Origin: Acidaminococcales bacterium
GTDB lineage: Bacteria > Bacillota > Negativicutes > Acidaminococcales > JAISLQ01
NCBI GenBank assembly: GCA_031290885.1
Contig: JAISLQ010000004.1
Coordinates: 1 to 34,388 of the forward strand
Length of the DNA stretch: 34,388 nucleotides
Reading direction: 5' to 3'
Shown in pieces: positions 116 through 20,749 of the stretch. Position 1 is the first letter of the stretch, and each line of letters starts with the position of its first letter. The position numbers were made by a program, and so were the translations under genes. The notes under the pieces were generated by a model that saw only the letters and a program-made list of their open reading frames with translations, ran no database searches and was not told where the DNA came from.

Positions 116-137
116 TTTACAATGAACCACAAATTTT

Positions 138-687: not shown

Positions 688-777
688 TGATCCTCCTTGC
701 AATCAGGAATTTGCCGCCGGGTTTCTTGTCTTTGGGGGCGCGCCGTTAGTTTGCGTTTATACTGCTTCCCAATTAAA

Positions 778-924: not shown

Positions 925-980
925 ACTTTTTATTTAATTGTCAGGCTTATCCTGCTGCCTGTCAAGCAATTTACAGAAAT

Positions 981-1010
981 TTGACTTTATCGGCCGGCAA
1001 GGATTAATAT
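981..1010 (+). promoter_or_regulatory. Putative sigma-A type promoter of trpB
   Basis: TTGACT (981-986) and TAATAT (1005-1010) are separated by 18 bases and lie about 45 bases upstream of the trpB start. The first 11 bases, TTGACTTTATC, are identical to the start of the pyr operon promoter at 3723. No T-box, tryptophan leader peptide or attenuator is visible in the short leader. Confidence 0.6.
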
Positions 1011-1056
1011 ATAGTTTGTAAGATAGTTACTAATTTTAAAAGGAGCGTTGTTAGCA

Positions 1057-2958: not shown

Positions 2959-3076
2959 GGACACGCCCCCCGAAAACCGCTTTTGCGTCCGGGCGGACCC
3001 TCTGCGCTATGCATATGCCCGTCAGAGCCGAAAGGATTAGGGCTGGCCGTTCGGCGTTGAAACGGCGGATCGGCGG

Positions 3077-3391
3077 TCAATGGCCGGGGTTGGCGGATTT
3101 TTCCCAACGGGCCAGGTTGCCGATCAGATCCGGGCCGCCGATTTTTTGCCGGAAAGCGTAAAACGCGCCGGCATTTTGAAATTCCGTTTTCCAGGCAAAA
3201 GTGTCGTCAGGCGAATAACAGGCGACGATGATTCTGTCCCCGGGCGCAGGCGAATCCCCGGCTTCGTTGGTGGCGATGAGGTAGAAGCCGCCTTCCTCCG
3301 GTTCATAACAATAACCGGCGCCGCTTCCTTCTTCCTCCAACTCAAAAAAATCCATACGCGCAAACAGCGCGGCCGGATCCTCGCTATCCAT
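3077..3391 (-). CDS. Small acidic protein of unknown function
   Basis: A 104-residue, acidic, soluble protein that I do not recognise. The ATG at 3389-3391 is preferred because an AAGGGGAG site lies about 9 bases upstream; a TTG eight codons earlier overlaps that site. There is no signal peptide or membrane segment. The N-terminal third is Glu/Asp-rich with an F-F-E-L-E-E-E stretch, and the rest alternates hydrophobic and charged residues with several aromatics, as in a small beta-rich domain. It converges on the SIMPL gene across 118 bases (2959-3076) and diverges from the zinc-ribbon gene. The good ribosome-binding site and codon use like the neighbours support a real gene. Confidence 0.65.
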   Translation of the reverse strand: MDSEDPAALFARMDFFELEEEGSGAGYCYEPEEGGFYLIATNEAGDSPAPGDRIIVACYSPDDTFAWKTEFQNAGAFYAFRQKIGGPDLIGNLARWEKSANPGH

Positions 3392-3531
3392 AACGCCATC
3401 TCCCCTTCTTTGCAATATGCCGCATGTTTGAAGCCGCCTTTAACTCTCTAAAGCGTAACTTATTTTTTGACAGTTGTCCATTGTTTTTGCGTTGAATATT
3501 TATGAAAATATTGGCCGGGGAGGGCGCGCGG

Positions 3532-3726
3532 ATGGGAAAATATTTAATGCAATTCATCTGCCCGAAATGTGGGCGGCACGTTGCTTGGGCACTGCCGCGG
3601 GCAAAGGTGTCCTGCGGCTTTTGCGGCGCGAAAATTGAACAAAAAAATATAAAGACGCCGAATCCGGCGCGGTTGCCGCTTGACAGCGATCAATTAGTGA
3701 TGTTTTCCGACTTTTTGAACGGTTGA
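3532..3726 (+). CDS. Small zinc-ribbon protein
   Basis: A 64-residue protein with one Cys4 zinc ribbon: Cys10 and Cys13 (CPKC) and Cys28 and Cys31 (CGFC), the first knuckle followed by Gly-Arg and the second by Gly-Ala-Lys. The rest is a short, mostly polar tail. The ATG at 3532 is chosen because GGGGAGGG lies 7 bases upstream; an in-frame ATG at 3502 has no such site. The stop codon overlaps the -35 hexamer of the pyr promoter. TTGACA at 3467-3472 could belong to its own promoter, but no good -10 is correctly spaced. The function is unknown; such proteins bind nucleic acid or act as small metal-binding adaptors. Confidence 0.7.
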   Translation: MGKYLMQFICPKCGRHVAWALPRAKVSCGFCGAKIEQKNIKTPNPARLPLDSDQLVMFSDFLNG

Positions 3727-3751
3727 CTTTATCTTTAATTAATGATAATAT
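3723..3751 (+). promoter_or_regulatory. Promoter of the pyr operon
   Basis: TTGACT (3723-3728), a 17-base spacer and TAATAT (3746-3751) make a near-consensus housekeeping promoter. Transcription would begin near 3758, giving a leader of roughly 300 bases before pyrB that contains the attenuator and repeat C. These elements fill the 333-bp gap 3727-4059. Confidence 0.75.
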
Positions 3752-3774
3752 TTAGTTGTACTTAAATAAATATA

Positions 3775-3804
3775 CCTTTAAGCCAGTACGGGAGACTGGC
3801 AAGG
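3775..3804 (+). promoter_or_regulatory. PyrR-binding-loop-like RNA hairpin (anti-antiterminator)
   Basis: The lower stem CCTT (3775-3778) pairs with AAGG (3801-3804). A 5'-side TAA bulge follows, then an upper stem GCCAGT (3782-3787) with ACTGGC (3795-3800) and the loop ACGGGAG. This is the architecture of PyrR binding loops in Firmicutes pyr leaders, with the conserved GAG in the loop. The loop is about one base shorter than the Bacillus consensus as I recall it. When bound by UMP-loaded PyrR it would prevent antiterminator formation. No pyrR gene is in the window, so the regulator is assumed. Confidence 0.7.
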
Positions 3805-3838
3805 GAGCATGGTCGGGATTTTATGCGCCTTCTTGCCA
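3797..3838 (+). promoter_or_regulatory. Antiterminator pairing of the pyr leader
   Basis: TGGCAAG (3797-3803), in the 3' arm of the PyrR loop, is perfectly complementary to CTTGCCA (3832-3838), in the 5' side of the terminator. Two G-U pairs can extend it. Forming this helix destroys both the binding loop and the terminator, which is the defining logic of a pyr attenuator. Confidence 0.65.
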
Positions 3839-3860
3839 CTGTCGCGGTGAGAAGGCTTTT
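3827..3860 (+). terminator. Attenuator terminator of the pyr leader
   Basis: GCCTTCT (3827-3833) pairs with AGAAGGC (3850-3856), and inside it CACTG pairs with CGGTG around a TCG loop with one 3-base bulge. TTTTATAT follows directly. This is a strong intrinsic terminator lying 200 bases before the first operon gene, so it is regulatory rather than an end-of-operon signal. Confidence 0.85.
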
Positions 3861-3868
3861 ATATGATG

Positions 3869-4032
3869 TAGAGCCTGTTGACGTTGCCGTTCAATACCCA
3901 TCTTTGGGCGAATTTTCCGCCGCGCTTTGCCCTGAAGCCTCGCTGAACATAGGGGTTCGCCTGCGTTTTGCGCCGCGCCTGACAAAAATTAGCTCAAAAT
4001 CTGAACATTTCCGATAGTGTTAACAGGCTCTA
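3869..4032 (-). mobile_element. Repeat C: 160-bp MITE-like element in the pyr leader
   Basis: The element 3871-4030 has terminal inverted repeats GAGCCTGTTGAC and GTTAACAGGCTC (one mismatch) and is flanked by TA at 3869-3870 and 4031-4032, consistent with a TA target duplication. It encodes no transposase, so it would depend on one elsewhere; TA-duplicating IS5- or IS630-type enzymes are candidates by inference. Its right end, inverted, matches the left end of repeat A. It lies between the attenuator and the pyrB ribosome-binding site, so every full-length pyr transcript carries it and the termini could pair in the RNA. Confidence 0.7.
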
Positions 4033-4059
4033 AGTCAAATATGGGTGGAGGGTAGTGGC

Positions 4060-5016
4060 ATGACCAAAGCGGCGGTATCGTTAAGCGGGCGAAGCATATT
4101 GGATATGGCGTCCCTGTCTGTGCCCGAGTATGAATTGATCATGGACACGGCTCTGGAAATGAAAAAAATCATTCACCGCGATATCAAGAAAGTGCCATCC
4201 TTGCGAGGCAAATCCATAGTTACGCTTTTTTATGAAGCAAGCACCCGCACCAGGACTTCTTTTGAACTGGCCGGCAAATATTTGGGCGCCGACGTGGTTA
4301 ACGTAGCGGTGGCGGCATCCAGCGTAACCAAAGGCGAGAGCCTGCGCGATACCCTCTATACCTTTGAAGCCATGCAGTTTGATGCCATCGTTATGCGGCA
4401 TCCGGTGGAAGGGGCGGCCGAATACGCGGCCAAAGCCGTGGACGCCGTTGTCTTGAACGCCGGCGACGGGGCGCACGCGCACCCAACGCAGGCGCTGCTT
4501 GACATGTTTACGATAAGGGAGCGCAAGAAAGAATTCAACGGCCTCAAAATGGCCATAATCGGCGATATAACGCACAGCCGGGTAGCAAGGTCCAATATCG
4601 CCGGGCTTGGCAAACTGGGAGTAAAGATACATGTGGCGGGGCCGCGGCCGCTATTGCCGGCCGAGGTGGAAAAACTTGGGGTTACGGCGCACGACCGTAT
4701 AGAAGACGCCATCAGGGACGCCGATATAATAAACGTGCTGCGAATACAATTGGAAAGGCAGAAGGTTGGGTTTTTCCCTACCACCCGCGAATACGCGCGC
4801 ATATTCGGATTGAACGCCGAACGCCTGAAACTGGCGCGCCCGGACGCGCTTATCATGCATCCGGGGCCGGTAAACCGCGGGCTGGAAATTTCCCCCGAGG
4901 TAGCTTACGGCGATAAATCGCTTATACGCGAGCAGGTGGAAAACGGCGTGGCGATACGCATGGCGCTGTTGTTCCTTACGCTGACGGGAGGCAGGCAAAT
5001 TGAAGCTGTTAATTAA
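4060..5016 (+). CDS. pyrB: Aspartate carbamoyltransferase catalytic chain
   Basis: This enzyme transfers the carbamoyl group of carbamoyl phosphate to L-aspartate, the committed step of pyrimidine synthesis. The 318 residues match the usual catalytic chain. The carbamoyl-phosphate site STRTRTSFE is at 61-69, HPTQALLD at 141-148, the second-domain G-D-I-T-H-S-R-V-A-R-S segment at 168-178, and HPGPVNRG at 267-274. No pyrI regulatory gene is present, as is usual for Firmicutes. The ATG at 4060 has GGAGG 8 bases upstream; a GTG at 4045 lies in front of that site and is rejected. First gene of the operon, it is preceded by the attenuator and repeat C. Its last 17 bases overlap pyrC. Confidence 0.97.
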   Translation: MTKAAVSLSGRSILDMASLSVPEYELIMDTALEMKKIIHRDIKKVPSLRGKSIVTLFYEASTRTRTSFELAGKYLGADVVNVAVAASSVTKGESLRDTLYTFEAMQFDAIVMRHPVEGAAEYAAKAVDAVVLNAGDGAHAHPTQALLDMFTIRERKKEFNGLKMAIIGDITHSRVARSNIAGLGKLGVKIHVAGPRPLLPAEVEKLGVTAHDRIEDAIRDADIINVLRIQLERQKVGFFPTTREYARIFGLNAERLKLARPDALIMHPGPVNRGLEISPEVAYGDKSLIREQVENGVAIRMALLFLTLTGGRQIEAVN

Positions 5017-6289
5017 AAACGGACGCATAGTGGACCCTTCGCGGAAAATTGACGCGGTTTTGGATGTATTGCTGGCGGACGGGCGGGTTAAAAGCATAGC
5101 AAACGCGATAGAGGACGAGGACGCGGAAATTTACGACGCTACCGGCCTTGTCGTTGCGCCCGGGGTGGTGGACGTGCATGTGCATCTGCGCGAACCGGGG
5201 CAGGAAGCGAAAGAAGACATTATATCAGGCACGCGGGCGGCGGCGGCGGGCGGCGTTACGACGGTGGCCTGCATGGCCAACACTCTGCCGGCGATTGACT
5301 CTTCCATACTAGTGTCAGGGCTCAAAGAGCGTATAAAACGCGAGGCGTTGGTTAACGTGGAAGTAGTGGGCGCCGTAACTAAGGGCCTTTCCGGCAAGGA
5401 ACTGGCGGAAATGGGCGACATGGCTTTGGCCGGCGCTATGGCTTTTTCCGACGATGGCCGCCACGTGGCAAATTCGCGCATATTTCGTTCCGCGCTTGAA
5501 TACGCGGCTATTTTCGACAAAATAGTCATAGTTCACGCCGAGGACGAGGCTTTTACCGCCAATGGGTTCATGCACGAAGGCGCGCGGTCAACCAAGCTTG
5601 GCGTGCCAGGGATACCGGCGGTGGCGGAAGACATAGCCGTGGCGCGCGACATCATGCTGGCGGAGTTTACGGGCGCCCGGCTGCATATAGCGCATGTATC
5701 GAGCAAAGGGGCGGTAGAAATCATACGCAGCGCGAAGCGCCGCGGCGTGCGCGTAACCGGCGAGGCGGCGGTGCACCATTTGACCTTGACCGATGAGCTG
5801 GTCGAAGGATACAACACCGCCGCGAAGGTAGCGCCGCCGCTAAGGACAAAAGAACACGTGGATGCGGTCAGGCGGGGGCTTAAAGACGGAACGCTGGACG
5901 CGATCGTTACCGACCACGCGCCGCACGCCTATGAAGAAAAAGACGTGGAGTTTCGTTACGCGCCTAACGGGTTTGCCGGACTGGAGACTTCCGTGGCGGT
6001 GATTTTGACCGACCTTTATCATGCGGGGCTTTTTACGCTCAACGAAATAATCGACCGGATGAGCGTCGCGCCGGCGCGGATATTTTCGCTCGGCGCCGGC
6101 AGCCTTAGCCCGGGGGCGAGGGCTGACCTTACAATAATTGACCTTGACCGGGAATGGACGGTGGACAGCGGCAAATTTTATACCCGCGGGCGGGTCACGC
6201 CATTTGACGGGAAAAAATGCCGGGGCAAAGCGGTTGCCGCCATAGTCTCAGGAAAGTTCGTAATGAAAGACGGTGTGGTAATTGACTGA
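5000..6289 (+). CDS. pyrC: Dihydroorotase (class I)
   Basis: A zinc amidohydrolase that cyclises carbamoyl aspartate to dihydroorotate. The 429 residues fit class I dihydroorotases of Gram-positive type, not the short class II form. Metal ligands visible are His60 and His62 in DVHVHLREPG, Asp151 or Asp152 in FSDDG, His179, His232 and the catalytic Asp305 in TDHAPH; the first zinc motif is followed by Arg64, which binds substrate. The start is a TTG at 5000 with GGGAGG about 9 bases upstream inside the end of pyrB. It overlaps pyrB by 17 bases and carA by 8, implying coupled translation. Confidence 0.96.
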   Translation: MKLLIKNGRIVDPSRKIDAVLDVLLADGRVKSIANAIEDEDAEIYDATGLVVAPGVVDVHVHLREPGQEAKEDIISGTRAAAAGGVTTVACMANTLPAIDSSILVSGLKERIKREALVNVEVVGAVTKGLSGKELAEMGDMALAGAMAFSDDGRHVANSRIFRSALEYAAIFDKIVIVHAEDEAFTANGFMHEGARSTKLGVPGIPAVAEDIAVARDIMLAEFTGARLHIAHVSSKGAVEIIRSAKRRGVRVTGEAAVHHLTLTDELVEGYNTAAKVAPPLRTKEHVDAVRRGLKDGTLDAIVTDHAPHAYEEKDVEFRYAPNGFAGLETSVAVILTDLYHAGLFTLNEIIDRMSVAPARIFSLGAGSLSPGARADLTIIDLDREWTVDSGKFYTRGRVTPFDGKKCRGKAVAAIVSGKFVMKDGVVID

Positions 6290-7355
6290 AAAGGGCGGCA
6301 AACTTGTCCTGAAAGACGGCAGCGTTTATAAAGGGCGATTTTTCGGCGGCGCCCCGGGGGTGGGCGAAGTGGTGTTCAATACCGCTATGACAGGTTATCA
6401 GGAAACGCTTACGGATCCTTCCTACTGCGGGCAGATAGTGGTTATGACTTATCCCTTGATCGGCAACTATGGCGTGAATGATCTTTACAAACAAGCGCCC
6501 AAATCTTATTTTCGCGGATATATCGTAAGCGAGCTTTGCGAGCGGCCGAGCAATTGGCGTTCGCGGGGATCGATAAAGGATTTCCTGCGGGAAGAAAAAA
6601 TACCCTGCCTTTATGGGGTGGATACGCGGGCGCTCACGCGGCGCATACGCACCGAAGGGACGTTGTGGGGCGCGATTGCCCCCGAGGATACGGATGAAGC
6701 TGAGATTAGCCGGCTGCTCGCCCTGCCGGAGGAGAAGTTTTTGGTCAGGGAGGTAACTATCAAGCAGCCGGAAAAAGTAGGCCGGGGCGGCAAGCGGGTG
6801 GCCTTTTTGGACTTTGGCGCCAAACGCGCCATGATTGACGATCTTTGCGCGTACGGCTACGATATGACCCTTTACCCGGCCTATACCGAAGCGGAAAAGA
6901 TACTGGCGGACAAGCCGGACGGCATATTTTTGTCCAACGGGCCGGGCGACCCTAAATCCTTGCCGGAAATAATCGGCAATATAAAGGCGCTTGTGGAAAG
7001 CGGCAAGCCGATATTCGGCATTTGTCTCGGCTACCAGCTGATTTGCCTTGCCTTGGGCGGCGATACTTACAAAATGAAATTTGGGCACCGGGGAGTAAAC
7101 CATCCGGTGAAAGACCTGCAATTGAACAAAATCGTCATAACTTCCCAAAATCACGGCTACGCGGTGAACGAGGGTTCGCTGTGCGGCACGGGGCTGAAAG
7201 TTACCCACCGCAACGTCAATGACGGGACGTTGGAAGGAGTCGCCCACGAGCACAAGCCCATCTTCGCCGTGCAGTATCATCCCGAGGCGTCTCCCGGCCC
7301 CGATGGGCACGAATATTTGTTCGAGCGCTTCGACAACCTGATCGGGGGACGGTAA
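6282..7355 (+). CDS. carA: Carbamoyl-phosphate synthase small (glutaminase) subunit
   Basis: It hydrolyses glutamine and passes ammonia through a tunnel to CarB. The N-terminal CPSase-small domain covers about 6-150 and contains [10 protein letters not shown]. The class I glutamine amidotransferase domain covers about 172-355, with the nucleophile Cys248 in GICLGYQ and the catalytic His333 and Glu335 in [10 protein letters not shown]. The 357-residue length is normal. The TTG at 6282 is used, overlapping the end of pyrC; its ribosome-binding site is weak, so it probably relies on coupling. One base separates its stop from carB. As a single carAB set inside the pyr operon, it would also have to serve arginine synthesis unless a second set exists elsewhere. 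Confidence 0.96.
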
Positions 7356-7356
7356 A

Positions 7357-10300
7357 ATGCCGAAAAAACAACATATCAAAAAAGTGCTTGTCATTGGCTC
7401 CGGCCCTATCGTCATCGGGCAGGCGGCGGAATTTGACTACGCGGGCACACAGGCCTGCCGCGCCCTGAAGGAGGAAGGGCTGGAGGTCGTTTTGGTCAAC
7501 AGCAATCCGGCGACGATCATGACGGACGCGAATATCGCCGATCGGGTATATATAGAGCCGCTGACTGTGGAGTTTTTAGAAGCCATAATCAAAAAAGAAC
7601 AGCCGGACGGACTTTTGGCTACCCTTGGCGGGCAGACCGGGCTGAATTTGGCGGTGGAACTTGGCCGGCGCGGCGCGCTGGCCGAATACGGCATCGAACT
7701 TTTGGGCACGTCGGTCGAGAGCATCAAAAAGGCGGAAGACCGCGAACTTTTCAAGGAAACCATGGAAAAGATCGGCGAGCCCGTGCCGGAAAGCACTATC
7801 GTCGAAACGGTTTACGCCGCCCGGCAATTCGCCCGCGAAGTGGGCTTTCCCCTCATCGTGCGCCCCGCTTATACGCTGGGCGGCACTGGCGGCGGGATAG
7901 CCGCCAACGAAGATGAATTGAGCGAAATTACCAACGTAGGTTTAAAATACAGCCTGATCGGCCAGGCGCTTATCGAACGCAGCGTCGCCGGCTGGAAGGA
8001 ATTGGAGTATGAAGTCATAAGGGACGCCGCCGACAATTGCGTAACCATTTGCAGCATGGAGAACCTTGATCCGGTCGGCGTGCATACCGGCGACAGCGTG
8101 GTGGTCGCGCCCGCGCAGACCCTGTCGGACCGCGAGCTGATGATGCTCAGGGGCGCCTCCGTCAGGATTATCCGCGCGCTTGGCGTCGAAGGCGGCTGCA
8201 ACGTGCAGTACGCGCTGGACCCTTGCTCGGAAAAATATTACGTTATCGAGGTCAATCCCCGCGTCAGCCGTTCCAGTGCCTTGGCGTCCAAAGCCACGGG
8301 CTATCCGATCGCCAAAGTCGCCAGTAAGATTGCCGTAGGGTACCTTCTCGAAGAAATTGAGAACGCCGTAACCCAAAAAACCAAAGCCTGTTTTGAGCCT
8401 TCCATAGACTATGCCGTCATAAAATTCCCGCGCTGGCCTTTTGACAAATTCGCCAACGCCGACCGGGAGTTGGGTACCCAGATGAAGGCGACCGGCGAGG
8501 TTATGGCGATCGACCGTTCTTTGGAAGGGGCTATTTTAAAGGCGGTAAGATCTTTGGAAATAGGCGCCGATCATCTTTGGCTGCCGGAAATAGCCGCGCT
8601 TTCCGATGCGGAATTGTTTGGCCGGATAAAAAATACTACCGACGAGCGGTTTTTTGTCATAGCCGAGGCCATGCGGCGGGGGAAGCCCTTAGGGGAAATA
8701 CATGAAATAACGGCCATCGACCGCTTTTTCCTGCAAAAAATCTTAAATATCGTAACTATGGAAAAACTGCTTGCGGAAAAGGGCCTTGATGAAGGGATGC
8801 TGCTTGCGGCCAAAAAATGCGGCTTTTCCGACCCGGCCATCGCCCGCCTTTGCGGGAAGGCGGCGTCCGACGTGCGCGCGGCGAGAAAACAATGCGCCAT
8901 ATTGCCGGCGTATAAAATGGTCGATACCTGCGCCGCCGAGTTTGAGGCGGTAACGCCGTATTATTATTCGGTCTACGGCGCGGAAGACGAAGTGGAAAGG
9001 ACGGCAAAACCCAAAGTCGTAGTATTGGGTTCCGGGCCGATTCGCATCGGGCAGGGCATAGAATTTGACTACTGTTCGGTACATTCTGTCTGGGCACTCA
9101 AGGAACTTGGCTATGAAACGGTGATTATAAACAACAACCCGGAAACGGTGAGCACGGATTTCGACACTGCGGATCGCCTCTATTTTGAGCCGCTGACGCT
9201 GGAGGACGTGCTTGGTGTCATAGACAAAGAGCGCCCGGAAGGGGTGATCGTCCAGTTCGGCGGGCAAACGGCGATTAATCTGGCCGGACCGCTTGCCGCC
9301 TGCGGCGTCCGGATCATCGGCTCCACGGTCGAAAGCATTGACATGGCCGAAGATCGTGAAAAGTTCGATGCACTGCTGACCAAACTCAACATCCCGCGAC
9401 CCCGCGGCTTTACGGTTTTCGACATAGAGGGCGCCCTGAAAGCGGCCGCGGCGGTCAGCTATCCCGTGATGGTGCGCCCGTCTTACGTCTTGGGCGGGCG
9501 CGCCATGGAAATAGTCTATAACGAGGGCGAACTGCGCCAATATATGACCGGCGCCGTTAAAGCCTCACAAGAGCACCCTGTTTTGGTGGACCATTACCTT
9601 TCCGGCACGGAAGTGGAAGTCGACGCGATTTGCGACGGCAAAGACACGCTTATTCCCGGGATAATGGAACATATTGAGCGGGCGGGCGTCCATTCCGGCG
9701 ACAGCATAGCCGTATATCCGCCGCGCAGCCTGTCGGAGCGGGTTATTCGCAGCGTCATTGATTTTACCAACCGCATAGCGCGCGGCCTGGAAGTCAAAGG
9801 TATGCTGAACATTCAATACATCGTGAAAAACGACGAGGTATTTGTCATAGAAGTCAACCCGCGTTCCAGCCGCACCGTGCCTTTTTTGAGCAAAGTAACC
9901 GGCATTCCCATGGTAAACGTCGCCACCAAAGCCGCGCTCGGGCAAAAAATAAAGCAAATCGGGTACAAGCCCGGCCTGCGCCTGTTCCCCGATTACTACG
10001 CGATAAAAGCGCCGGTATTTTCCTTTGCGAAAATGCACAACGTCGATATAACGTTGGGGCCGGAAATGAAATCCACCGGCGAGGTCATGGGTGTTGACAA
10101 CAAATTCTCGCGCGCCCTTTACAAAGCCTGCGTTGCTTCCGGCATCAATGTCCCGGACGAGGGGGCGATACTTTTTACCATCGCCGATAAAGATAAAGAC
10201 GAAGCGTTAGCCATCGCCAAAGGCTTTTATGACCTTGGTTATATGATCGCGGCGACGAAGGGCACGGCGGAATTTTTTATAAAAAACGGCATTGACGCGC

Positions 10301-10578
10301 AACTGGCCGCAAAAGTCAGCGAGGGTTCGCCTAACCTTCTGGATGAGATCAAAAAAGGCAAAATAAACATGGTGATAAATACCATAAGCAAAGGCTCGGC
10401 CTATGAACGGGACGGTTTCAATATAAGGCGCGCCACGGTGGAACACGCCATACCGTGCCTTACCTCCGTGGACACGGCGAAAGCCATCCTTGGCGTTATG
10501 TCGGCCATGAGGCGCCGCCGCTTGGTCAGCGTCGTTGCTTTGCAGGATCTTTTATGGGCAGGTGATGATTTTGAGTAA
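7357..10578 (+). CDS. carB: Carbamoyl-phosphate synthase large subunit
   Basis: It makes carbamoyl phosphate from bicarbonate, CarA-supplied ammonia and two ATP. At 1073 residues it is full length. Two homologous halves are visible, each opening with G-S-G-P-I-x-I-G-Q (near residues 14 and 558) followed by an ATP-grasp domain: the first forms carboxyphosphate, the second phosphorylates carbamate. An oligomerisation segment lies between (about 400-550). The C-terminal MGS-like allosteric domain (about 935-1073) carries A-T-K-G-T-A and N-T-I-S-K-G, the region that binds UMP or ornithine effectors in relatives. The ATG follows the carA stop by one base, with a G-rich site upstream. Its end overlaps pyrK by 14 bases. 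Confidence 0.97.
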
Positions 10579-11344
10579 AAAATTTGTCGAATTGGCTGCC
10601 GTGCTGGGCAATGTCCGTTTGGGAAGCGATGTGTACAGCCTTTTGCTTGACGCTCCGCAAATCTGCCGGGAAGCTAAGCCGGGGCAGTTCGTGGGGGTAA
10701 AGACCGGCTGGGGGCAAGCGCCTTTCCTGCGCCGCCCGCTGTCGGTGGCGGACGCCGCAGACGGCCGGATAACCATAATCTACAGGGCGGCAGGCGTTGG
10801 CACAAGCTGGCTGGCCGCCCGCCGGGAAGGGGAAAAAGTTGATATCATGGGCCCTTTGGGGCATGGGTTTTCGCTTGAGGCCAAAAGGCCCCTTTTAGTG
10901 GGCGGCGGCATTGGCATCGCTCCCCTAATCAGCGTAGCGCGAAGCTTTGCCGGCCGTTTTGGCAGCGGCATTGTGCTGGCCGGGCGCAATAAAGACGAAA
11001 TAACTTACTGGCAGGCCATGTTTAAAGATCTTTGCCATTGCGTGTACATTGCCACCGACGACGGCAGCATGGGCATTCGCGGCAACGCCTTGGCCGTTTT
11101 GCCGCAAGCGGCGGAAGAAGGCGGATACGACTGCATATACGCCTGTGGGCCGCCGCCCATGCTGAAGGCGATCGCCGCTTTTGTCAGACAGAAAAACATT
11201 CCCTGCCAACTTTCCTTGGAAAGCCGCATGGGTTGCGGCTTGGGGGCGTGCCAGGCCTGCTCCTGCCAAGGCGCGGACGGAAAGCGCAAGCGCATTTGCC
11301 TTAACGGCCCCGTATTTGCCGCCGGGGAGGTGGAAGGATTATGA
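10565..11344 (+). CDS. pyrK: Dihydroorotate dehydrogenase electron-transfer subunit
   Basis: This FAD and [2Fe-2S] subunit lets the PyrD partner use NAD+ as electron acceptor. The FAD-binding barrel covers about 1-105, with RRPLSVAD at 57-64. The NAD-binding domain covers about 108-215, with GGGIGIAPL at 113-121 and a CGPPPML segment at 194-200. The C-terminal cluster ligands are Cys224, Cys229, Cys232 and Cys245. The 259-residue length is standard. I chose the ATG at 10565, inside the end of carB; a TTG two codons later is also possible, and the upstream frame beginning at 10535 has no ribosome-binding site. It overlaps pyrD by four bases (ATGA). Confidence 0.95.
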
Positions 11345-12270
11345 GCGCTGCGGACGGGAACAAACTGGCGGTGGAAATCGCCGGCATCAAGATGAAAACC
11401 CCTGTTATGACGGCTTCCGGCACATGCGGGTATGGGCTGGAACTGCTGGACTTTGTCGATTTGAACAGCCTTGGTGCGCTTGTCGTCAAAGGCGCCACCC
11501 TTGAACCTTGCCCCGGCAACGCCGGACAGAGGATAGCGGAGACGCCCGCCGGGGCGCTTAACGCAATCGGGCTGGAAAATCCCGGCGTAGGGGTGTTTAT
11601 TGACAACATACTGCCGGCGCTCCGCCGCTATGACGTGCCGGTGATCGCCAATATCGCCGGACGGACGGTGGACGAATACGCGGAATTGGCGCGGCGGCTC
11701 GACGCTACCGCCGTAGCCGGCATAGAGATCAACATTTCCTGCCCCAACATTAAAGCGGGCGGCCTTGCTTTCGGCACGCGGCCGGGCAGCGCCGCCGAAG
11801 TAGTGGGCGCGGTGAGAAGGGCCAGCGGCAAGCCGATTATCACCAAACTTTCGCCGAACGTAACCGACATAGCGGAAATCGCGCGGGCGGCGGAAGCCGC
11901 GGGCAGCGACGCGCTCTCCCTGATCAATACCTTGGTTGGCATGAAAATAGACATAAAAAGGAAACAACCGGCGCTGGGCAACATTTTCGGCGGACTTTCC
12001 GGCCCGGCCGTCCGCCCGGTGGCGGTGCGCATGGTCTGGCAGGCCGCGCGGGCGGTAAAGATACCGGTGATCGGCATGGGCGGCATTGCGGCGGCCGAGG
12101 ACGCTTTGGAATTTATCATGGCGGGAGCGAGCGCCGTGGCGGTAGGGTCGGCGACCTTCGCCGACCCGCAGTCAATTGAGCTTATAACTCAGGGTTTGCG
12201 CGCCTATATGCGGGAAGAGGCCGCCGCCAATATTGGCGAACTTGTCGGCGCGGCTTGGCCGCCCGCGTGA
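11341..12270 (+). CDS. pyrD: Dihydroorotate dehydrogenase, class 1B catalytic subunit
   Basis: An FMN enzyme oxidising dihydroorotate to orotate. The 309 residues form one TIM barrel. Lys50 sits in VVKGATL, the class 1 catalytic base Cys134 lies in NISCPNIK, and the FMN phosphate site is GMGGI at 245-249. Cys in place of the Ser of class 2 enzymes, and the adjacent pyrK, both assign it to the NAD-dependent heterotetrameric class 1B. The start overlaps the pyrK stop, with a GGGGAGG site upstream. Confidence 0.97.
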   Translation: MSAADGNKLAVEIAGIKMKTPVMTASGTCGYGLELLDFVDLNSLGALVVKGATLEPCPGNAGQRIAETPAGALNAIGLENPGVGVFIDNILPALRRYDVPVIANIAGRTVDEYAELARRLDATAVAGIEINISCPNIKAGGLAFGTRPGSAAEVVGAVRRASGKPIITKLSPNVTDIAEIARAAEAAGSDALSLINTLVGMKIDIKRKQPALGNIFGGLSGPAVRPVAVRMVWQAARAVKIPVIGMGGIAAAEDALEFIMAGASAVAVGSATFADPQSIELITQGLRAYMREEAAANIGELVGAAWPPA

Positions 12271-12282
12271 GGAGCGAAGAAG

Positions 12283-13005
12283 ATGATTTTTGAAGACAGA
12301 CTTATCGTTGCCCTGGACGTGCCCAACATGGACAAAGCCAGCAGGCTGATCGTCGCGTTGGACAGTACGGTAAATTATTACAAAGTGGGCATGGAACTTT
12401 TCTACGGCGCGCAAAAAGACGTGATTGACTATCTGAAAGCGCGCCGCAAAAAGATATTCCTTGACTTGAAATTGCACGACATACCGAATACGGTTGCGCG
12501 AAGCATTGAGGTTTTGAGCGCCCTGGAAGTGGACATGATCACCCTGCACGCCTTCGGCGGGCGGGAGATGATGCAAGAGGCTGCGGCGGCGGCAAAGCGG
12601 ATCCAGGAAAAGACTGGCAGGAAAGCGCCGCTTTTGCTTGCCGTTACTGTGCTTACCAGCCTTGGCGAAAAGCAATGGCGCGAACTTAACAGCGCCCTTT
12701 CCATAAAGGAGCAAGTGCTGGAGATGGCCAAACTCGCCAAAGATTCCGGCATGAGCGGGGCAGTAGCGTCGCCTTGGGAAGCGGCGGGCATCCGTGAAGC
12801 CTGTGGCCGGGATTTTTACATCGTAACGCCTGGCGTTAGGCAAAGTGCCGACAGCTGCAACGACCAGGCCCGTTTCGCCACGCCCCAAATGGCGCTGGAA
12901 GCGGGCGCGAGCCATATAGTGGTCGGGCGCCCGATAACCCGGGCGATTGACCCTAAAGGGGCGGCGCGGGCGATCATCGAAGAGATGCGGGAGGCCTGCC
13001 TGTGA
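12283..13005 (+). CDS. pyrF: Orotidine 5'-phosphate decarboxylase
   Basis: It decarboxylates OMP to UMP, the last step of the pathway. The 240-residue barrel matches the Bacillus-type family. Visible catalytic residues are Asp11, Lys34 and the D-x-K-x-x-D set Asp61, Lys63, Asp66 in DLKLHDIPNTV. Phosphate-binding elements are TPGVR at 182-186 and VGRPIT at 214-219. GAGGAG lies about 9 bases before the ATG, 12 bases after the pyrD stop. The stop overlaps the pyrE start. Confidence 0.97.
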   Translation: MIFEDRLIVALDVPNMDKASRLIVALDSTVNYYKVGMELFYGAQKDVIDYLKARRKKIFLDLKLHDIPNTVARSIEVLSALEVDMITLHAFGGREMMQEAAAAAKRIQEKTGRKAPLLLAVTVLTSLGEKQWRELNSALSIKEQVLEMAKLAKDSGMSGAVASPWEAAGIREACGRDFYIVTPGVRQSADSCNDQARFATPQMALEAGASHIVVGRPITRAIDPKGAARAIIEEMREACL

Positions 13006-13574
13006 AAAAAGAAACGCTCATGAAACTTTTGGAAGACACGGGCGCCGTCCTCCACGGGCATTTTCTCCTTACCTCCGGCCTGCACAGCCCTATGTATTTG
13101 GAAAAATTCCAACTGCTGCAATATCCCGAATATACGGAGCTTTTATGCAAGGAATTGGCGAAAAATTTCGCCGCCGATCGGGTGGAGCTGGTCGTTGGCC
13201 CGGTTACCGGCGGGATACTGCTGGCGCATGAAACCGGCAAGGCGCTGAAAACAAAAGCCATCTTCACCGAACGCGAAGATGGCAAGATGACGTTGAAACG
13301 CGGATTTGAAATACCGGCCGGCGCGAGGGTGCTGGTCGTGGAAGATATTGTTACCACGGGCGGTTCGGTGCGGGAAGTGCTGGAAGTCGTCCAGGAAAAA
13401 GGCGGGTTGCCCGTCGGCGTTGGCGTTTTGGTGGACCGCAGCGGCGGGTGCGTAGATTTTGGCGTCAAGACGGCCGCGCTTCTCAAACTGGACGTTCCGG
13501 TTTTCAAGCCAAAGGAGTGCCCTTTGTGCAAAGAAGGGCTCGCTTTCACCAAACGGGGGCGGACAGGCAAGTGA
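13002..13574 (+). CDS. pyrE: Orotate phosphoribosyltransferase
   Basis: It joins orotate to PRPP, giving OMP for PyrF. The 190-residue type I PRTase has the PRPP motif V-L-V-V-E-D-I-V-T-T-G-G-S at 110-122 and the flexible-loop region K-T-K-A-I-F-T-E-R-E near 83-92. A C-terminal CPLC pair (Cys173, Cys176) follows the barrel; I recall similar pairs in clostridial PyrE but cannot confirm metal binding. The start is a GTG whose last two bases begin the pyrF stop, with GGGAGG upstream. It is the last gene of the operon. No convincing intrinsic terminator with a T tract is seen in the 65 bases before the convergent gene. Confidence 0.95.
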   Translation: MKKETLMKLLEDTGAVLHGHFLLTSGLHSPMYLEKFQLLQYPEYTELLCKELAKNFAADRVELVVGPVTGGILLAHETGKALKTKAIFTEREDGKMTLKRGFEIPAGARVLVVEDIVTTGGSVREVLEVVQEKGGLPVGVGVLVDRSGGCVDFGVKTAALLKLDVPVFKPKECPLCKEGLAFTKRGRTGK

Positions 13575-13639
13575 ACGTCCGGGCGGCGGCGGTTCTCCGG
13601 CCGTTCGCGCGCGAGAAAACGGCAACTGTTGAAGCCCCG

Positions 13640-15496
13640 CTATTTCTTATGCGCCAGGCGCCGGCAGTTGAGCAAAAGCACAATTCCGAACAGGCCGTCG
13701 AGTAAAATAGCCTGCCAGATATAAAAGACATTGAAAATTACCGTTGCGAAAAGAATGAATTTTACGCCAAGGAACAGCCGCCGGTAAATTTTTGTAAATT
13801 TTTGGCAAGCTTTGCCCATGGCGAAAACAGCCGGAAGACAGGCAAGATGATCGCCCAACATTATTATATCGGCGCTGTCTAAAGCGGCTCCAAGGTCTTT
13901 CGCGGCGTTTACGGCGATGCTGATGTCCGCGCTGGCGAAGGAATCGGCATCTGTTTCGGCGTTGCCGACGATTAAGACGCTGCCGTAGTTATGGTGCAGT
14001 TTTTTTACCGCCGCAGCTTTGGCGGCGCTATGCAGATTGCTTACCGCATCGGTAAAACCGAGCGGTTTGCTGGCGGAAGCGGCCGCTTTTTCCTGCTCCT
14101 TGGTCAGCATGATGATATTTTTCACGTCGAGAGCGCGTATTTTCTGGATTGTCGTGAAAATTCCCGGATGAATGTCGTCGATAAAGGACAAAAGCCCCGC
14201 AGCCTCTCCGTCTACGGCCATAAACAGCACGGTTGAGCCGTGATTTAAATATTCGGCGTACTTGCGCAAAAGGACGTAAGTTTTAATCCCTTTTTCCAGC
14301 AAAAATCTGTTGCTGCCTAAAATAACGGCGCGGTTTTCTATTACGCCGGCGATATTGAATTGATCCATTTCCTCGATTTGCGCCTTTAGTTCCCCCTCGG
14401 CCGCCCGGCCGTCCCCCTGGCTTGCTATGGTGTCGGCCAGCGGGTGGGCGGCGGCCTTGGTAAGGGCGCCGGCCAGCCGCATAAGTTCTGGCCGCGAGAA
14501 GGGGTAAGGCGCGTGTAGGTTGGACAGGATGAGTTTGCCGTTGGCTAAGGTGGTTGCCTTTTCAAAAGCTACGGCTTTTACTTCGCTTATCTTTTCAAAA
14601 GCGACTGGATTTTTCACTATGACGCCTGATTTGTCCGCCTTGTCCATGACAAAAGACAAGAAAAGGGCGGATGCTTTGACAAGCGGGTTGTAAGGGGCGA
14701 AAATCAGCAGTATCGCCAAAGTATAGTAAAGCCAGTTGAGCATGGAAATGGCGAAAAAGTAATAAGGGACGGCCATAAAGAAAATAAAAGTGAGCAGGCG
14801 GCGCGAATAATGTTGATGGTAATATTTAAGGGTGCGCAATTCCTTTTCGACGGCCGCCTGTTTGAGCGTGTTCAAAATACTGCTGAACAGGGAAGTTTCC
14901 TGCGCGCTGACGGCCTCCGCCGTCAAGCGGCCTTCGGCGGCCGATAAACCGGCGAAAACGAAAGAACCTTCCCCCGCGCAATGAGTTGAGGCGGGCGGGG
15001 CGATTGTTGGCGGCAATATTTTGGCTTTGCCGGAACGGACTATGGCATCGACCGGCAGCACTTGTTTTTCTTCCAGCAAAATGACGTCGCCGCATTTGAT
15101 TTCAGAAGAAAGCGCGGCGGAAAACCCTTCCCCGTCAAATATTTTTACCGGCGCCGGAGGATTTTGCCAGGAATCGTACAGTTGCCTTAATTGCCTGGCG
15201 GCGGTATAATTTTGTATAAGTTCCAAGGTGGCGATTAAGCACACATATTTGGCCGCCTCGGGCAGTTTGTTTATTGAAATCAAGCCGACCGCCGCGAGAA
15301 ATATGAACAAGCCGGCGCTGACGCGCAGCGACAACAAAGACAGGCAGGCGGCGCGGAGCATGTGCCAGCCGCAAAGGACGATGCTGCCGGCGAACAAGTA
15401 CGAATCTATCCCGTATAAATTGGCGGCGGGGACAAACAGGCCGATAAAAAGCAAAAATAGCCCCGTAAGGGAACGGAACGGATAACTGAGCGGCAT
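13640..15496 (-). CDS. Catalytically degenerate P1B-type ATPase-like membrane protein
   Basis: An intact 618-residue protein with the layout of a heavy-metal P-type ATPase but without its chemistry. About eight membrane segments are predicted (near 8-28, 33-55, 60-76, 82-97, 233-252, 254-282, 572-593, 594-611), with an actuator-like loop (about 100-230) and a P/N-like loop (about 285-570). The motif replacements are: TGES becomes AGEGS (174-178), the membrane CPC becomes APY (267-269), DKTGT becomes EKATT (312-316) so the phosphorylated Asp is Glu, TGDN becomes TKEQ (465-468), and GDGxND becomes GNAETD (511-516). The P1B nucleotide-site HP is kept (His351, Pro352). No N-terminal metal-binding domain is present. 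The start has CGGAGG about 8 bases upstream. It is probably a pseudo-pump with a sensory, scaffolding or regulatory role, not an active transporter. It diverges from pgaC. Confidence 0.85.
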   Translation of the reverse strand: MPLSYPFRSLTGLFLLFIGLFVPAANLYGIDSYLFAGSIVLCGWHMLRAACLSLLSLRVSAGLFIFLAAVGLISINKLPEAAKYVCLIATLELIQNYTAARQLRQLYDSWQNPPAPVKIFDGEGFSAALSSEIKCGDVILLEEKQVLPVDAIVRSGKAKILPPTIAPPASTHCAGEGSFVFAGLSAAEGRLTAEAVSAQETSLFSSILNTLKQAAVEKELRTLKYYHQHYSRRLLTFIFFMAVPYYFFAISMLNWLYYTLAILLIFAPYNPLVKASALFLSFVMDKADKSGVIVKNPVAFEKISEVKAVAFEKATTLANGKLILSNLHAPYPFSRPELMRLAGALTKAAAHPLADTIASQGDGRAAEGELKAQIEEMDQFNIAGVIENRAVILGSNRFLLEKGIKTYVLLRKYAEYLNHGSTVLFMAVDGEAAGLLSFIDDIHPGIFTTIQKIRALDVKNIIMLTKEQEKAAASASKPLGFTDAVSNLHSAAKAAAVKKLHHNYGSVLIVGNAETDADSFASADISIAVNAAKDLGAALDSADIIMLGDHLACLPAVFAMGKACQKFTKIYRRLFLGVKFILFATVIFNVFYIWQAILLDGLFGIVLLLNCRRLAHKK

Positions 15497-15545
15497 TTGC
15501 GACCTCCGTATAAAATCTGAAGCGCCTTGTTTTATATACGCGCCA

Positions 15546-15574
15546 AATTTGTTATTATTTCATTATAACAAATT
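15546..15574. promoter_or_regulatory. Perfect 10-bp inverted repeat, probable operator
   Basis: AATTTGTTAT (15546-15555) and ATAACAAATT (15565-15574) form a perfect inverted repeat around a 9-base spacer. It covers the minus-strand -10 element of the pseudo-ATPase gene, and TTGTTA inside the left arm could serve as a -35 for pgaC. The size and symmetry suit a dimeric repressor. I cannot name the regulator. Confidence 0.6.
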
Positions 15575-15590
15575 AAATATTGCCGGTAAA
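15562..15590 (-). promoter_or_regulatory. Promoter of the pseudo-ATPase gene
   Basis: On the minus strand a perfect TATAAT lies at 15562-15567, with TTTACC (15585-15590) as a weak -35 at a 17-base spacing. The leader would be about 60 bases. The -10 is embedded in the inverted repeat described above. Confidence 0.6.
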
Positions 15591-15671
15591 ACATATTGAT
15601 AAATTTAACGTAGGCACACATCATGGCCGGGCTTGCCGGGAAAAATCTGGAAAAACGGCGGTTGCGCACAG

Positions 15672-16907
15672 ATGGCATGGTTTTTCTCCCTGCTGGGGAG
15701 CTATGTTTTTTATTATCCTTTGGTTATGAGCCTTGTATGGATAATCGGCGGTTTGTTTTTTTATTTCCGAAAGGAAAGAAATACCGGCAGGTTTCCGATA
15801 TTGAGGTTTGTGCCGAAAATTTCCGTCCTGATACCCGCCCGCAACGAGGCGGACAATATCAGGGAAACCGTGCAGGCGGTTTTGGCGTCGCAGTATCCTG
15901 CCATGGAAGTTATCGTGATCGACGATGACAGTTCCGACGGCACGGACCGGATTATAACCAAACTGGGGGAGGAACACGAAAACGTCCGGGGTTTGTTCCT
16001 GCGCCGGCACATGGGCAAAGCGAGCGGCCTGAACATGGCTTTTCTCATGAGCCGGGGCGACATAATCGTAACGATTGACGCCGACTGCCTGCTCGACAAA
16101 CAGGCTTTGTATTGGATTGCCTGGCATTTCGCGAATTTCCCCCGCGTCGGCGCGGTAACCGGCAATCCTCATGTCAGGAACCGGACGACCCTTCTGGCGC
16201 AAATACAGACGGCGGAATATACCAGCGTCATCGGACTGGTAAAAAGAACGCAGAGAGTGCTTGGCAAGCTGCTCACCGTGTCGGGCGTCATAGCCGCTTT
16301 CCGGCGGGAGGCGCTGGCGGACGTGGGGCTGTGGAGCCATGACATGATAACGGAAGACATCGACATAACTTGGAAATTGGAAAAGCGTTTTTGGGATGTG
16401 CGCTATGAAACGAACGCCGTAGGCTGGATACTGGTGCCGGAAACGCTTAAAGGATTGTGGATGCAGCGCCTGCGCTGGGCCCAGGGCGGCGTGGAAACAA
16501 TAAGGCGACATCGCGGCGTTTGGCTGGATTGGCGCCAGCGCCGGATATGGCCTGTTTATATAGATTATGTATTAGTGATCATCTGGAGCTATTCTTTCTT
16601 TTTAACTGTTCTGTATTGGGGCGCCTGCCGGCTGCTGGGGGCGGAAACGGGCGTTTTTTGGGGCTGGAACGGCAGCGTGGCGGCTTTTGTCTGTGTTTTT
16701 CAGTTTTTGGTCAGCCTGTCCATCAACTTGCGTTATGACAAGACGCTTATTTCAGCCTATTTTTGGATCATCTGGTATCCGGCTTTTTACTGGCTTTTCA
16801 ACGCTTGCGCCACGGTAGTTGGCTTTTACAAAGGGATGACGAAAAAATTCGGCCGCGCGTCGCTTTGGCAAAGTCCGGATCGGGGCGTATCAAGGAGCGC
16901 GCGATAA
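15672..16907 (+). CDS. pgaC: Poly-beta-1,6-N-acetylglucosamine synthase (GT2 family)
   Basis: A membrane glycosyltransferase that polymerises UDP-GlcNAc into the biofilm polysaccharide PNAG (PgaC/IcaA type). The 411 residues comprise an N-terminal membrane segment (about 5-31), a cytoplasmic GT2 domain with DDDSSDGT at 84-91, DAD at 136-138, the catalytic base in TEDID at 227-231 and QRLRW at 265-269 followed by AQGG, then C-terminal membrane segments (about 297-320, 333-352, 360-385). The stretch around ITEDIDITWKLE and PETLKGLW closely resembles PgaC as I know it. The ATG at 15672 is preferred; an in-frame TTG at 15633 would add a short non-hydrophobic tail. The ribosome-binding site is weak. 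pgaD follows one base after the stop. No pgaA or pgaB is within the visible sequence. Confidence 0.88.
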   Translation: MAWFFSLLGSYVFYYPLVMSLVWIIGGLFFYFRKERNTGRFPILRFVPKISVLIPARNEADNIRETVQAVLASQYPAMEVIVIDDDSSDGTDRIITKLGEEHENVRGLFLRRHMGKASGLNMAFLMSRGDIIVTIDADCLLDKQALYWIAWHFANFPRVGAVTGNPHVRNRTTLLAQIQTAEYTSVIGLVKRTQRVLGKLLTVSGVIAAFRREALADVGLWSHDMITEDIDITWKLEKRFWDVRYETNAVGWILVPETLKGLWMQRLRWAQGGVETIRRHRGVWLDWRQRRIWPVYIDYVLVIIWSYSFFLTVLYWGACRLLGAETGVFWGWNGSVAAFVCVFQFLVSLSINLRYDKTLISAYFWIIWYPAFYWLFNACATVVGFYKGMTKKFGRASLWQSPDRGVSRSAR

Positions 16908-16908
16908 C

Positions 16909-17194
16909 ATGGTAAGGCGCAACAAGATTATCTATTGTCCCAACAAAATATCTAAATACCGGCACGGGCTGGAATTTGCCATAAAGCTGTTTTTGAGCGC
17001 GGCGGTCTTTTTTCTGACCTTGTCCTTGTGGGGTTATTTCGGCAGTTATTTTTATCGCGGCCTGTTTTCCGAAAGTTATTTCGCAAATACGGTGGAAATA
17101 TTGGGCAAACTGCTTGTGGCCGCGCTTTTTGTTTTTTTTGCCATGTTTTTTTGGCAGCAATATAATATACTGGCGTTCGGCGGCCGCACCCGCC
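16909..17194 (+). CDS. pgaD: PgaD-like biofilm subunit, truncated at the palindrome axis
   Basis: The first 95 codons encode a small membrane protein with two hydrophobic segments (about 21-46 and 62-83), then Q-Q-Y-N-I-L-A-F-G-G-R-T-R-R. This matches the PgaD/IcaD pattern of two membrane helices followed by a W/Q-x-Y-N motif and a basic cytoplasmic tail. PgaD activates PgaC, in relatives in response to cyclic di-GMP. Position directly after pgaC, with AAGGAG 11 bases before the ATG, supports the call. The frame stays open to 17313, but everything after 17194 is its own antisense and not natural protein. The true C-terminus is missing from the window. Confidence 0.75.
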
Positions 17195-17211
17195 GGCGGG
17201 TGCGGCCGCCG
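17178..17211. repeat. Axis of the palindrome
   Basis: The axis falls inside the self-complementary ten-mer CCGCCGGCGG (17190-17199). The left arm just before it also contains GGCGG (17179-17183) and CCGCC (17190-17194), able to form a small hairpin by themselves. The encoded T-R-R-R run fits a natural PgaD tail, so the ten-mer itself may be genuine sequence at which the copy turned back. Confidence 0.8.
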
Positions 17212-17480
17212 AACGCCAGTATATTATATTGCTGCCAAAAAAACATGGCAAAAAAAACAAAAAGCGCGGCCACAAGCAGTTTGCCCAATATTTCCACCGT
17301 ATTTGCGAAATAACTTTCGGAAAACAGGCCGCGATAAAAATAACTGCCGAAATAACCCCACAAGGACAAGGTCAGAAAAAAGACCGCCGCGCTCAAAAAC
17401 AGCTTTATGGCAAATTCCAGCCCGTGCCGGTATTTAGATATTTTGTTGGGACAATAGATAATCTTGTTGCGCCTTACCAT
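17195..17480 (-). CDS. pgaD: PgaD-like subunit, mirror copy, truncated
   Basis: Exact mirror of 16909-17194. The gene starts at 17480 and runs into the axis after about 95 codons; the open frame continues to 17076 only as chimeric sequence. Confidence 0.7.
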
Positions 17481-18892: not shown

Positions 18893-20749
18893 ATGCCGCT
18901 CAGTTATCCGTTCCGTTCCCTTACGGGGCTATTTTTGCTTTTTATCGGCCTGTTTGTCCCCGCCGCCAATTTATACGGGATAGATTCGTACTTGTTCGCC
19001 GGCAGCATCGTCCTTTGCGGCTGGCACATGCTCCGCGCCGCCTGCCTGTCTTTGTTGTCGCTGCGCGTCAGCGCCGGCTTGTTCATATTTCTCGCGGCGG
19101 TCGGCTTGATTTCAATAAACAAACTGCCCGAGGCGGCCAAATATGTGTGCTTAATCGCCACCTTGGAACTTATACAAAATTATACCGCCGCCAGGCAATT
19201 AAGGCAACTGTACGATTCCTGGCAAAATCCTCCGGCGCCGGTAAAAATATTTGACGGGGAAGGGTTTTCCGCCGCGCTTTCTTCTGAAATCAAATGCGGC
19301 GACGTCATTTTGCTGGAAGAAAAACAAGTGCTGCCGGTCGATGCCATAGTCCGTTCCGGCAAAGCCAAAATATTGCCGCCAACAATCGCCCCGCCCGCCT
19401 CAACTCATTGCGCGGGGGAAGGTTCTTTCGTTTTCGCCGGTTTATCGGCCGCCGAAGGCCGCTTGACGGCGGAGGCCGTCAGCGCGCAGGAAACTTCCCT
19501 GTTCAGCAGTATTTTGAACACGCTCAAACAGGCGGCCGTCGAAAAGGAATTGCGCACCCTTAAATATTACCATCAACATTATTCGCGCCGCCTGCTCACT
19601 TTTATTTTCTTTATGGCCGTCCCTTATTACTTTTTCGCCATTTCCATGCTCAACTGGCTTTACTATACTTTGGCGATACTGCTGATTTTCGCCCCTTACA
19701 ACCCGCTTGTCAAAGCATCCGCCCTTTTCTTGTCTTTTGTCATGGACAAGGCGGACAAATCAGGCGTCATAGTGAAAAATCCAGTCGCTTTTGAAAAGAT
19801 AAGCGAAGTAAAAGCCGTAGCTTTTGAAAAGGCAACCACCTTAGCCAACGGCAAACTCATCCTGTCCAACCTACACGCGCCTTACCCCTTCTCGCGGCCA
19901 GAACTTATGCGGCTGGCCGGCGCCCTTACCAAGGCCGCCGCCCACCCGCTGGCCGACACCATAGCAAGCCAGGGGGACGGCCGGGCGGCCGAGGGGGAAC
20001 TAAAGGCGCAAATCGAGGAAATGGATCAATTCAATATCGCCGGCGTAATAGAAAACCGCGCCGTTATTTTAGGCAGCAACAGATTTTTGCTGGAAAAAGG
20101 GATTAAAACTTACGTCCTTTTGCGCAAGTACGCCGAATATTTAAATCACGGCTCAACCGTGCTGTTTATGGCCGTAGACGGAGAGGCTGCGGGGCTTTTG
20201 TCCTTTATCGACGACATTCATCCGGGAATTTTCACGACAATCCAGAAAATACGCGCTCTCGACGTGAAAAATATCATCATGCTGACCAAGGAGCAGGAAA
20301 AAGCGGCCGCTTCCGCCAGCAAACCGCTCGGTTTTACCGATGCGGTAAGCAATCTGCATAGCGCCGCCAAAGCTGCGGCGGTAAAAAAACTGCACCATAA
20401 CTACGGCAGCGTCTTAATCGTCGGCAACGCCGAAACAGATGCCGATTCCTTCGCCAGCGCGGACATCAGCATCGCCGTAAACGCCGCGAAAGACCTTGGA
20501 GCCGCTTTAGACAGCGCCGATATAATAATGTTGGGCGATCATCTTGCCTGTCTTCCGGCTGTTTTCGCCATGGGCAAAGCTTGCCAAAAATTTACAAAAA
20601 TTTACCGGCGGCTGTTCCTTGGCGTAAAATTCATTCTTTTCGCAACGGTAATTTTCAATGTCTTTTATATCTGGCAGGCTATTTTACTCGACGGCCTGTT
20701 CGGAATTGTGCTTTTGCTCAACTGCCGGCGCCTGGCGCATAAGAAATAG
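18893..20749 (+). CDS. Degenerate P1B-type ATPase-like protein, mirror copy
   Basis: Identical 618-codon frame to 13640-15496. Reading on the plus strand makes the CGGAGG site before the ATG at 18893 obvious. The same motif losses are present (EKATT for DKTGT, APY for CPC, GNAETD for GDGxND), so they cannot be a one-off base-call error in one half unless the halves derive from the same reads. Confidence 0.82.
   Translation: MPLSYPFRSLTGLFLLFIGLFVPAANLYGIDSYLFAGSIVLCGWHMLRAACLSLLSLRVSAGLFIFLAAVGLISINKLPEAAKYVCLIATLELIQNYTAARQLRQLYDSWQNPPAPVKIFDGEGFSAALSSEIKCGDVILLEEKQVLPVDAIVRSGKAKILPPTIAPPASTHCAGEGSFVFAGLSAAEGRLTAEAVSAQETSLFSSILNTLKQAAVEKELRTLKYYHQHYSRRLLTFIFFMAVPYYFFAISMLNWLYYTLAILLIFAPYNPLVKASALFLSFVMDKADKSGVIVKNPVAFEKISEVKAVAFEKATTLANGKLILSNLHAPYPFSRPELMRLAGALTKAAAHPLADTIASQGDGRAAEGELKAQIEEMDQFNIAGVIENRAVILGSNRFLLEKGIKTYVLLRKYAEYLNHGSTVLFMAVDGEAAGLLSFIDDIHPGIFTTIQKIRALDVKNIIMLTKEQEKAAASASKPLGFTDAVSNLHSAAKAAAVKKLHHNYGSVLIVGNAETDADSFASADISIAVNAAKDLGAALDSADIIMLGDHLACLPAVFAMGKACQKFTKIYRRLFLGVKFILFATVIFNVFYIWQAILLDGLFGIVLLLNCRRLAHKK

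Follow-up and report, generated by a model that had tools for sequence, protein, structure and literature searches.

Kinases, phosphatases, and proteases have well-known inactive relatives, and P-type ion pumps depend on a cycle that requires a phosphorylated aspartate, a Mg site, the TGE motif, and a nucleotide pocket. To our knowledge, intact full-length P-type ATPases in which every catalytic motif has been lost have rarely been described. No bacterial P-type pseudoenzyme was found in the literature searched, the coverage of which is incomplete so that novelty is provisional, and the precedents are eukaryotic only. In the case of TMEM94/ERMA, an animal endoplasmic reticulum protein with ten transmembrane (TM) segments, TGES is lost, DKTGT is changed to DKQGI, and GDGxND is replaced by GSSANL; movement of Mg has been reported for this protein, together with the inactivity of its D427N mutant (PMC13322241), whereas a second group saw no catalytic cycle (PMC12134183). 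In another case, Plasmodium GCbeta carries a degenerate P4-ATPase domain in which most signature residues are missing, and in this family of alveolate cyclases the ATPase part has been proposed to regulate a cyclase (PMC6592433).

The gene described here, from an Acidaminococcales bacterium, shares with these proteins a P-type fold or module in which the signature residues are altered. It differs from TMEM94/ERMA, a eukaryotic protein of another subfamily and of disputed function, in that TMEM94/ERMA has kept the aspartate of DKQGI. It differs from GCbeta, also eukaryotic, in that the latter is of P4 type and fused to a guanylate cyclase. Compared to ZntA/CadA, the zinc and cadmium pumps of the P1B-2 group (PDB 4umv/4umw), the gene product has the same domain order, eight TM helices, the HP motif, the membrane Lys and Asp residues, and the invariant glycines, but lacks the phosphorylated Asp, CPC, TGES, TGD, GDGxND, and the N-terminal HMA domain. 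We refer to it below as the pseudo-pump.

The Gene and Its Altered Motifs

The analyzed stretch of 34,388 bases (the window) spans the whole of contig C4 and is an exact palindrome about 17194/17195, with zero mismatches. The exactness and the symmetry over the entire contig point to an assembly fold-back. Each gene thus shows up twice, the real content is bases 1-17194, and the apparent second pump copy at 18893-20749 is the same single gene. The gene and its surroundings are as follows.

13002..13574, plus strand: pyrE, which closes the pyr operon and converges with the pseudo-pump gene
13640..15496, minus strand: pseudo-P1B-ATPase gene, 618 codons, eight predicted TM helices with A, P, and N domains
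15546..15574, both strands: near-perfect 13-nt dyad, AATTTGTTATTAT/ATTATAACAAATT, between the pseudo-pump gene and pgaC
15675..16907, plus strand: pgaC/icaA-type poly-N-acetylglucosamine synthase gene, divergent neighbor (TIGR03937, 486.9 bits, cut-off 422.3)
16909..17194, plus strand: pgaD-like ORF with two TM segments, cut by the fold-back at 17194, no family match

The pgaD-like ORF is listed as 16909-17313, which crosses the palindrome center, and its translation past 17194 is an artefact. Elsewhere in the window, the stretches 137-185, 756-923, and 3899-4033 are dispersed and repeat-like, some of them mutually inverted, with many scattered matches in the sole congener (G001); an Rfam search of the window, these stretches included, gave no family.

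The pseudo-pump frame runs on the minus strand from the ATG at 15496 to a stop that ends at 13640 and encodes 618 amino acids without an internal stop codon or frameshift. A GGAGGT ribosome site lies directly 5′ of the ATG, and a predicted −35/−10 pair (TTTACC-17-TATAAT, 10/12) precedes the gene. The original prediction of a full-length P1B-ATPase-like gene with a good ribosome-binding site and a clear promoter was correct in ORF, strand, and coordinates; the ribosome site is present, and the promoter is a predicted one. The perfect palindrome, with its misassembly at 17194, could raise the suspicion that the gene itself is a chimera, a contaminant, or miscalled sequence. We regard this as extremely improbable, as the gene sits 1.7 kb from the fold point with an unbroken frame, the pyr genes on this contig share 89% identity with those of the congener, and pyrE is 70-72% identical to its relatives in the order.

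Family searches placed the protein among the P-type ATPases. Pfam matches were obtained with E1-E2_ATPase (9e-11) and HAD (1.6e-8), and NCBIfam TIGR01525, which represents heavy-metal P-type ATPases, matched with E=1.5e-64 at 218.9 bits, below its curated cut-off of 346.25. When the protein was aligned with 56 normal relatives, conservation reached at least 90% in 106 columns. The pseudo-pump keeps 45 of these 106; among the normal relatives, the lowest share kept is 71%, and for most of them it is far higher. The alignment gave the following motifs, all on the minus strand.

13694..13771, minus strand: retained membrane residues Lys579 (LGVK) and Asp600 (LLDG), which match the Lys and Asp of the zinc ATPase 4umv in the alignment
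13949..13966, minus strand: GNAETD in place of GDGxND, the P-domain Mg site
14093..14107, minus strand: LTKEQ in place of LTGD(N/x), with G466K and D467E; T465 kept
14438..14452, minus strand: AAHPL, the N-domain HP motif, kept (H351-P352)
14549..14566, minus strand: FEKATT in place of (F/L/M)DKTGT, with the phosphorylated Asp changed (D312E); Lys313 and Thr316 kept
14687..14698, minus strand: APYN in place of CPCA, the metal site of M4, with C267A and C269Y; Pro268 kept
14984..15001, minus strand: APPAST in place of TGESxP, the actuator dephosphorylation loop

Around the position of the phosphorylated Asp, T314, G315, and T318 are also lost. In the actuator loop, T166-G167-E168 has become A-P-P (a change of TGES that may be summarized as PPAS), and in GNAETD the changes are D512N, G513A, and N515T, with Gly511 and the last Asp, Asp516, kept. 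The nucleotide pocket has lost Glu346, S349, G379, and G381 (the GxG of 379-381); G394, D440, and the P-domain Lys, K493, are among the residues kept. Every motif change that had been claimed from the sequence (DKTGT, CPC, GDGxND, TGES, and TGDN) is thus seen in the alignment, and so is the retained HP signature. The losses in the catalytic motifs are real but are not limited to them, as the pseudo-pump has lost 44 of the 80 conserved columns outside the catalytic and ligand set, compared with 17 of the 26 within it (Fisher p=0.37). The divergence is global and not confined to the active site, and a targeted loss of catalytic residues alone is unsupported.

As the Asp, the Mg site, the TGE motif, and the nucleotide pocket are all altered, we infer that the pseudo-pump acts by binding or as a scaffold and does not turn over ATP; judged from these residues, it almost certainly cannot pump. 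A non-canonical active transporter, in which an unusual chemistry or an uncoupled carrier still moves an ion as proposed for TMEM94/ERMA, would agree with the retention of Lys579, Asp600, HP, Lys493, and Asp516 and with the Mg movement reported for ERMA in spite of its altered motifs (PMC13322241). However, ERMA keeps the Asp and is dead as D427N (PMC13322241), while the pseudo-pump has Glu at this position and has also lost the N-domain E, the GxG, and the two metal-site Cys residues; furthermore, a second group saw no catalytic cycle in TMEM94 itself (PMC12134183). Such a transporter is very unlikely here.

The predicted structure agrees with the layout of the family. AlphaFold2 with the family alignment gave a model of eight membrane helices and cytosolic A, P, and N domains (mean pLDDT 82, pTM 0.70), a result that indicates compatibility rather than independent proof, because the input alignment was made of normal pumps and favors the family fold. 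The loop of residues 165-169, which replaces TGES, is the sole internal segment below a pLDDT of 50. By E-value, the best solved match in Foldseek was the zinc ATPase 4umw (2.2e-33), and the best TM-score among the matches listed was that of the copper ATPase 7r0g (0.75). The eight membrane segments and P1B layout expected from the sequence agree with the model and with these zinc and copper P1B matches.

Relatives, Descent, and Constraint on the Frame

No orthologue of the pseudo-pump was found in 63 genomes of the order, in 381 genomes of the class, in 399 genomes sampled across the phylum, or in a scan of GTDB-220 contigs that detects close relatives only. In the present data, it is a singleton from one genome. 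Its best matches are 24-26% identical. DKTGT was present in every P1B match inspected, and CPC or SPC together with GDGxND in nearly all of them, the lower-scoring matches having been inspected in part. The congener (75% complete) has no pump gene; its contig ends at window position 11007, ahead of the locus, and pyrE is absent there too, so that the missing pump is uninformative.

Several candidate sources or relatives were rejected. First, plasmid matches were ordinary CadA-type pumps at 25% identity. Second, the viral relatives returned by the fold search were giant-virus Ca/Mg pumps only. Third, the HMA-less pumps of about 620 residues at six loci of the order and class, considered as a sister group, all have DKTGT, CPC, and GDGxND.

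Two variations among other P-type ATPases were also observed. Four short proteins, three of 624-643 and one of 619 residues, have DKTGT and lack the usual CPC and TGE patterns, and GDGDND is present in three of the four. In many P1B pumps of the order, TGEP stands for TGES, with DKTGT, CPC, and GDGIND kept.

The pseudo-pump probably descends from a Zn/Cd-type (P1B-2) pump. This descent is indicated by the alignment with 4umv and by the retained membrane residues Lys579, in TM helix 7, and Asp600, in TM helix 8; the 4umv/4umw group is also its best match in the PDB by sequence (E 1e-37). In a tree, its terminal branch has a length of 10 changes per site, which is at saturation, and the exact origin is therefore not fixed by the tree. 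Two normal P1B pumps are encoded elsewhere in the genome, one ZntA-like (L003, contig C27) and one CopA-like (L004, contig C1). Both are homologous P1B ATPases, about 23-24% identical to the pseudo-pump over the matched part, but unlike it they have all motifs intact and an HMA-type N-terminus. With these two pumps in place, the third copy would have been free to change its role.

The suggestion that the gene might be a decaying local copy could be judged from close homologues with normal motifs: none was found, and normal-motif homologues exist only at about 26% identity or less. Neutral substitution was also simulated in 400 runs from the genome's own normal pump, with an equilibrium GC of 60% and no indels. 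At 41% of residues changed, the most decay-friendly case (the distance between the query and the least conservative normal pump), a mean of 6.4 stops accumulated and 1 of 400 runs was free of stops; at 58%, there were 9.4 stops and none of the 400 runs was stop-free. Real decay adds frameshifts on top of substitutions. With at most 1 stop-free neutral run in 400, most of the divergence arose under constraint on the coding frame, and for that part we reject the idea that a normal pump decayed recently and locally. Codon preference is likewise specific to the frame (0.096, against −0.075 and −0.166 when the frame is shifted), and the GC pattern by codon position is clear. Collectively, the stop-free frame compared with the simulation, the frame-specific codon preference, and the retained predicted fold support the earlier view that this is not simple decay. 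The pseudo-pump is a real and intact gene that has most likely been maintained for a long time, and we infer that it is expressed.

The codon preference of 0.096 and the GC3 of 0.614 are nevertheless the lowest among the genes compared (others 0.163-0.250 and 0.645-0.726), which fits either weak expression or a relaxed constraint, perhaps of recent date. The gene could thus have been constrained, perhaps already as a non-pumping protein, through most of its divergence and now be drifting to loss with no current function. Consistent with such late relaxation, 97 of 400 simulated runs were still free of stops when the last 10% of residues changed, no orthologues were found in the genomes searched, and the adjoining pga locus lies in a genome without pgaA and pgaB. 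However, the 618 codons are free of stops and frameshifts, the ribosome site and the promoter-like site are intact, and the simulation shows that neutral change cannot account for most of the divergence. We consider present drift unlikely.

The Probable Divergent Promoter and pgaC

With pyrE convergent on one side and pgaC divergent on the other, the pseudo-pump gene is probably monocistronic. The dyad between it and pgaC contains −10-like hexamers for both strands, TATAAT at 15567-15562 on the minus strand and TATTAT at 15553-15558 on the plus strand, and the predicted divergent start sites are about 10 bp apart. Bidirectional promoters have been defined by a start-site spacing of 7-25 bp (PMC10268837). 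The dyad at 15546-15574 is a likely shared divergent promoter, as predicted from these elements. No exact second copy was found in the genome, and matches with two mismatches occurred near the control count. A Zur/Fur-type regulon operator was rejected for the dyad, as there is no other exact copy and the symmetric −10 region explains the symmetry.

PgaC is a true PgaC/IcaA equivalog with intact glycosyltransferase motifs. In the window genome (95% complete), pgaB was not found and pgaA gave a noise-level match only. A relative in the order (G002) has the only other pgaC of the order, 67% identical as protein, within a pgaA-B-C-D set in which pgaA is below the cut-off. That set occupies positions 671-6645 of its contig (C13). 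Of the four genes, the window genome carries just pgaC and the pgaD-like ORF. No pump lies alongside the G002 locus, and no P-type ATPase relative was found near 39 pgaC-like loci from GTDB genomes. The pairing of pump and pgaC is local; the recurring link to pgaC that had been anticipated did not appear at these loci, and a conserved partnership was rejected for this reason.

A narrower form of the binding role would make the pseudo-pump a dedicated regulator of PgaC/PgaD, with one bidirectional promoter controlling both. The intact pgaC divergent from it is in keeping with this idea, as are the two −10-like elements within one dyad and a start-site distance inside the defined range (PMC10268837), and PgaC may be regulated differently in a genome without pgaB and pgaA. 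The G002 locus and the 39 others, all without a pump, argue against such a regulator, and symmetric −10 elements are common by themselves, so that we hold it to be improbable. More speculative still, the protein might be the founding member of a bacterial pseudo-P1B family of membrane sensors or regulators, in this genome switched either in opposition to poly-GlcNAc synthesis or together with it by way of the symmetric divergent promoter; we give this extension little credence.

Proposed Role and Significance

The reading that we favor, with moderate confidence, is that of a retained pseudo-pump of Zn/Cd-type P1B (P1B-2) descent that does not cycle and is kept as a translated membrane protein, most likely as a scaffold or a ligand-responsive partner. 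A Zn/Cd-type P1B ATPase would have lost its pumping cycle and would have been kept as a membrane protein that is still translated and still has its eight helices and its A, P, and N domains. Without ATP turnover, it may serve as a membrane scaffold or a ligand-responsive partner that would work by binding, with the cytosolic headpiece changing its contact with another protein. PgaC would be a candidate for that protein, by way of the shared divergent promoter region.

Expression of the pseudo-pump and its conservation in sister species, if established, would mean that bacteria can put an entire ion-pump scaffold to a non-pumping use. In that case, the protein would also provide a simpler test case for the TMEM94/ERMA dispute, that is, for what the P-type fold does without its chemistry.
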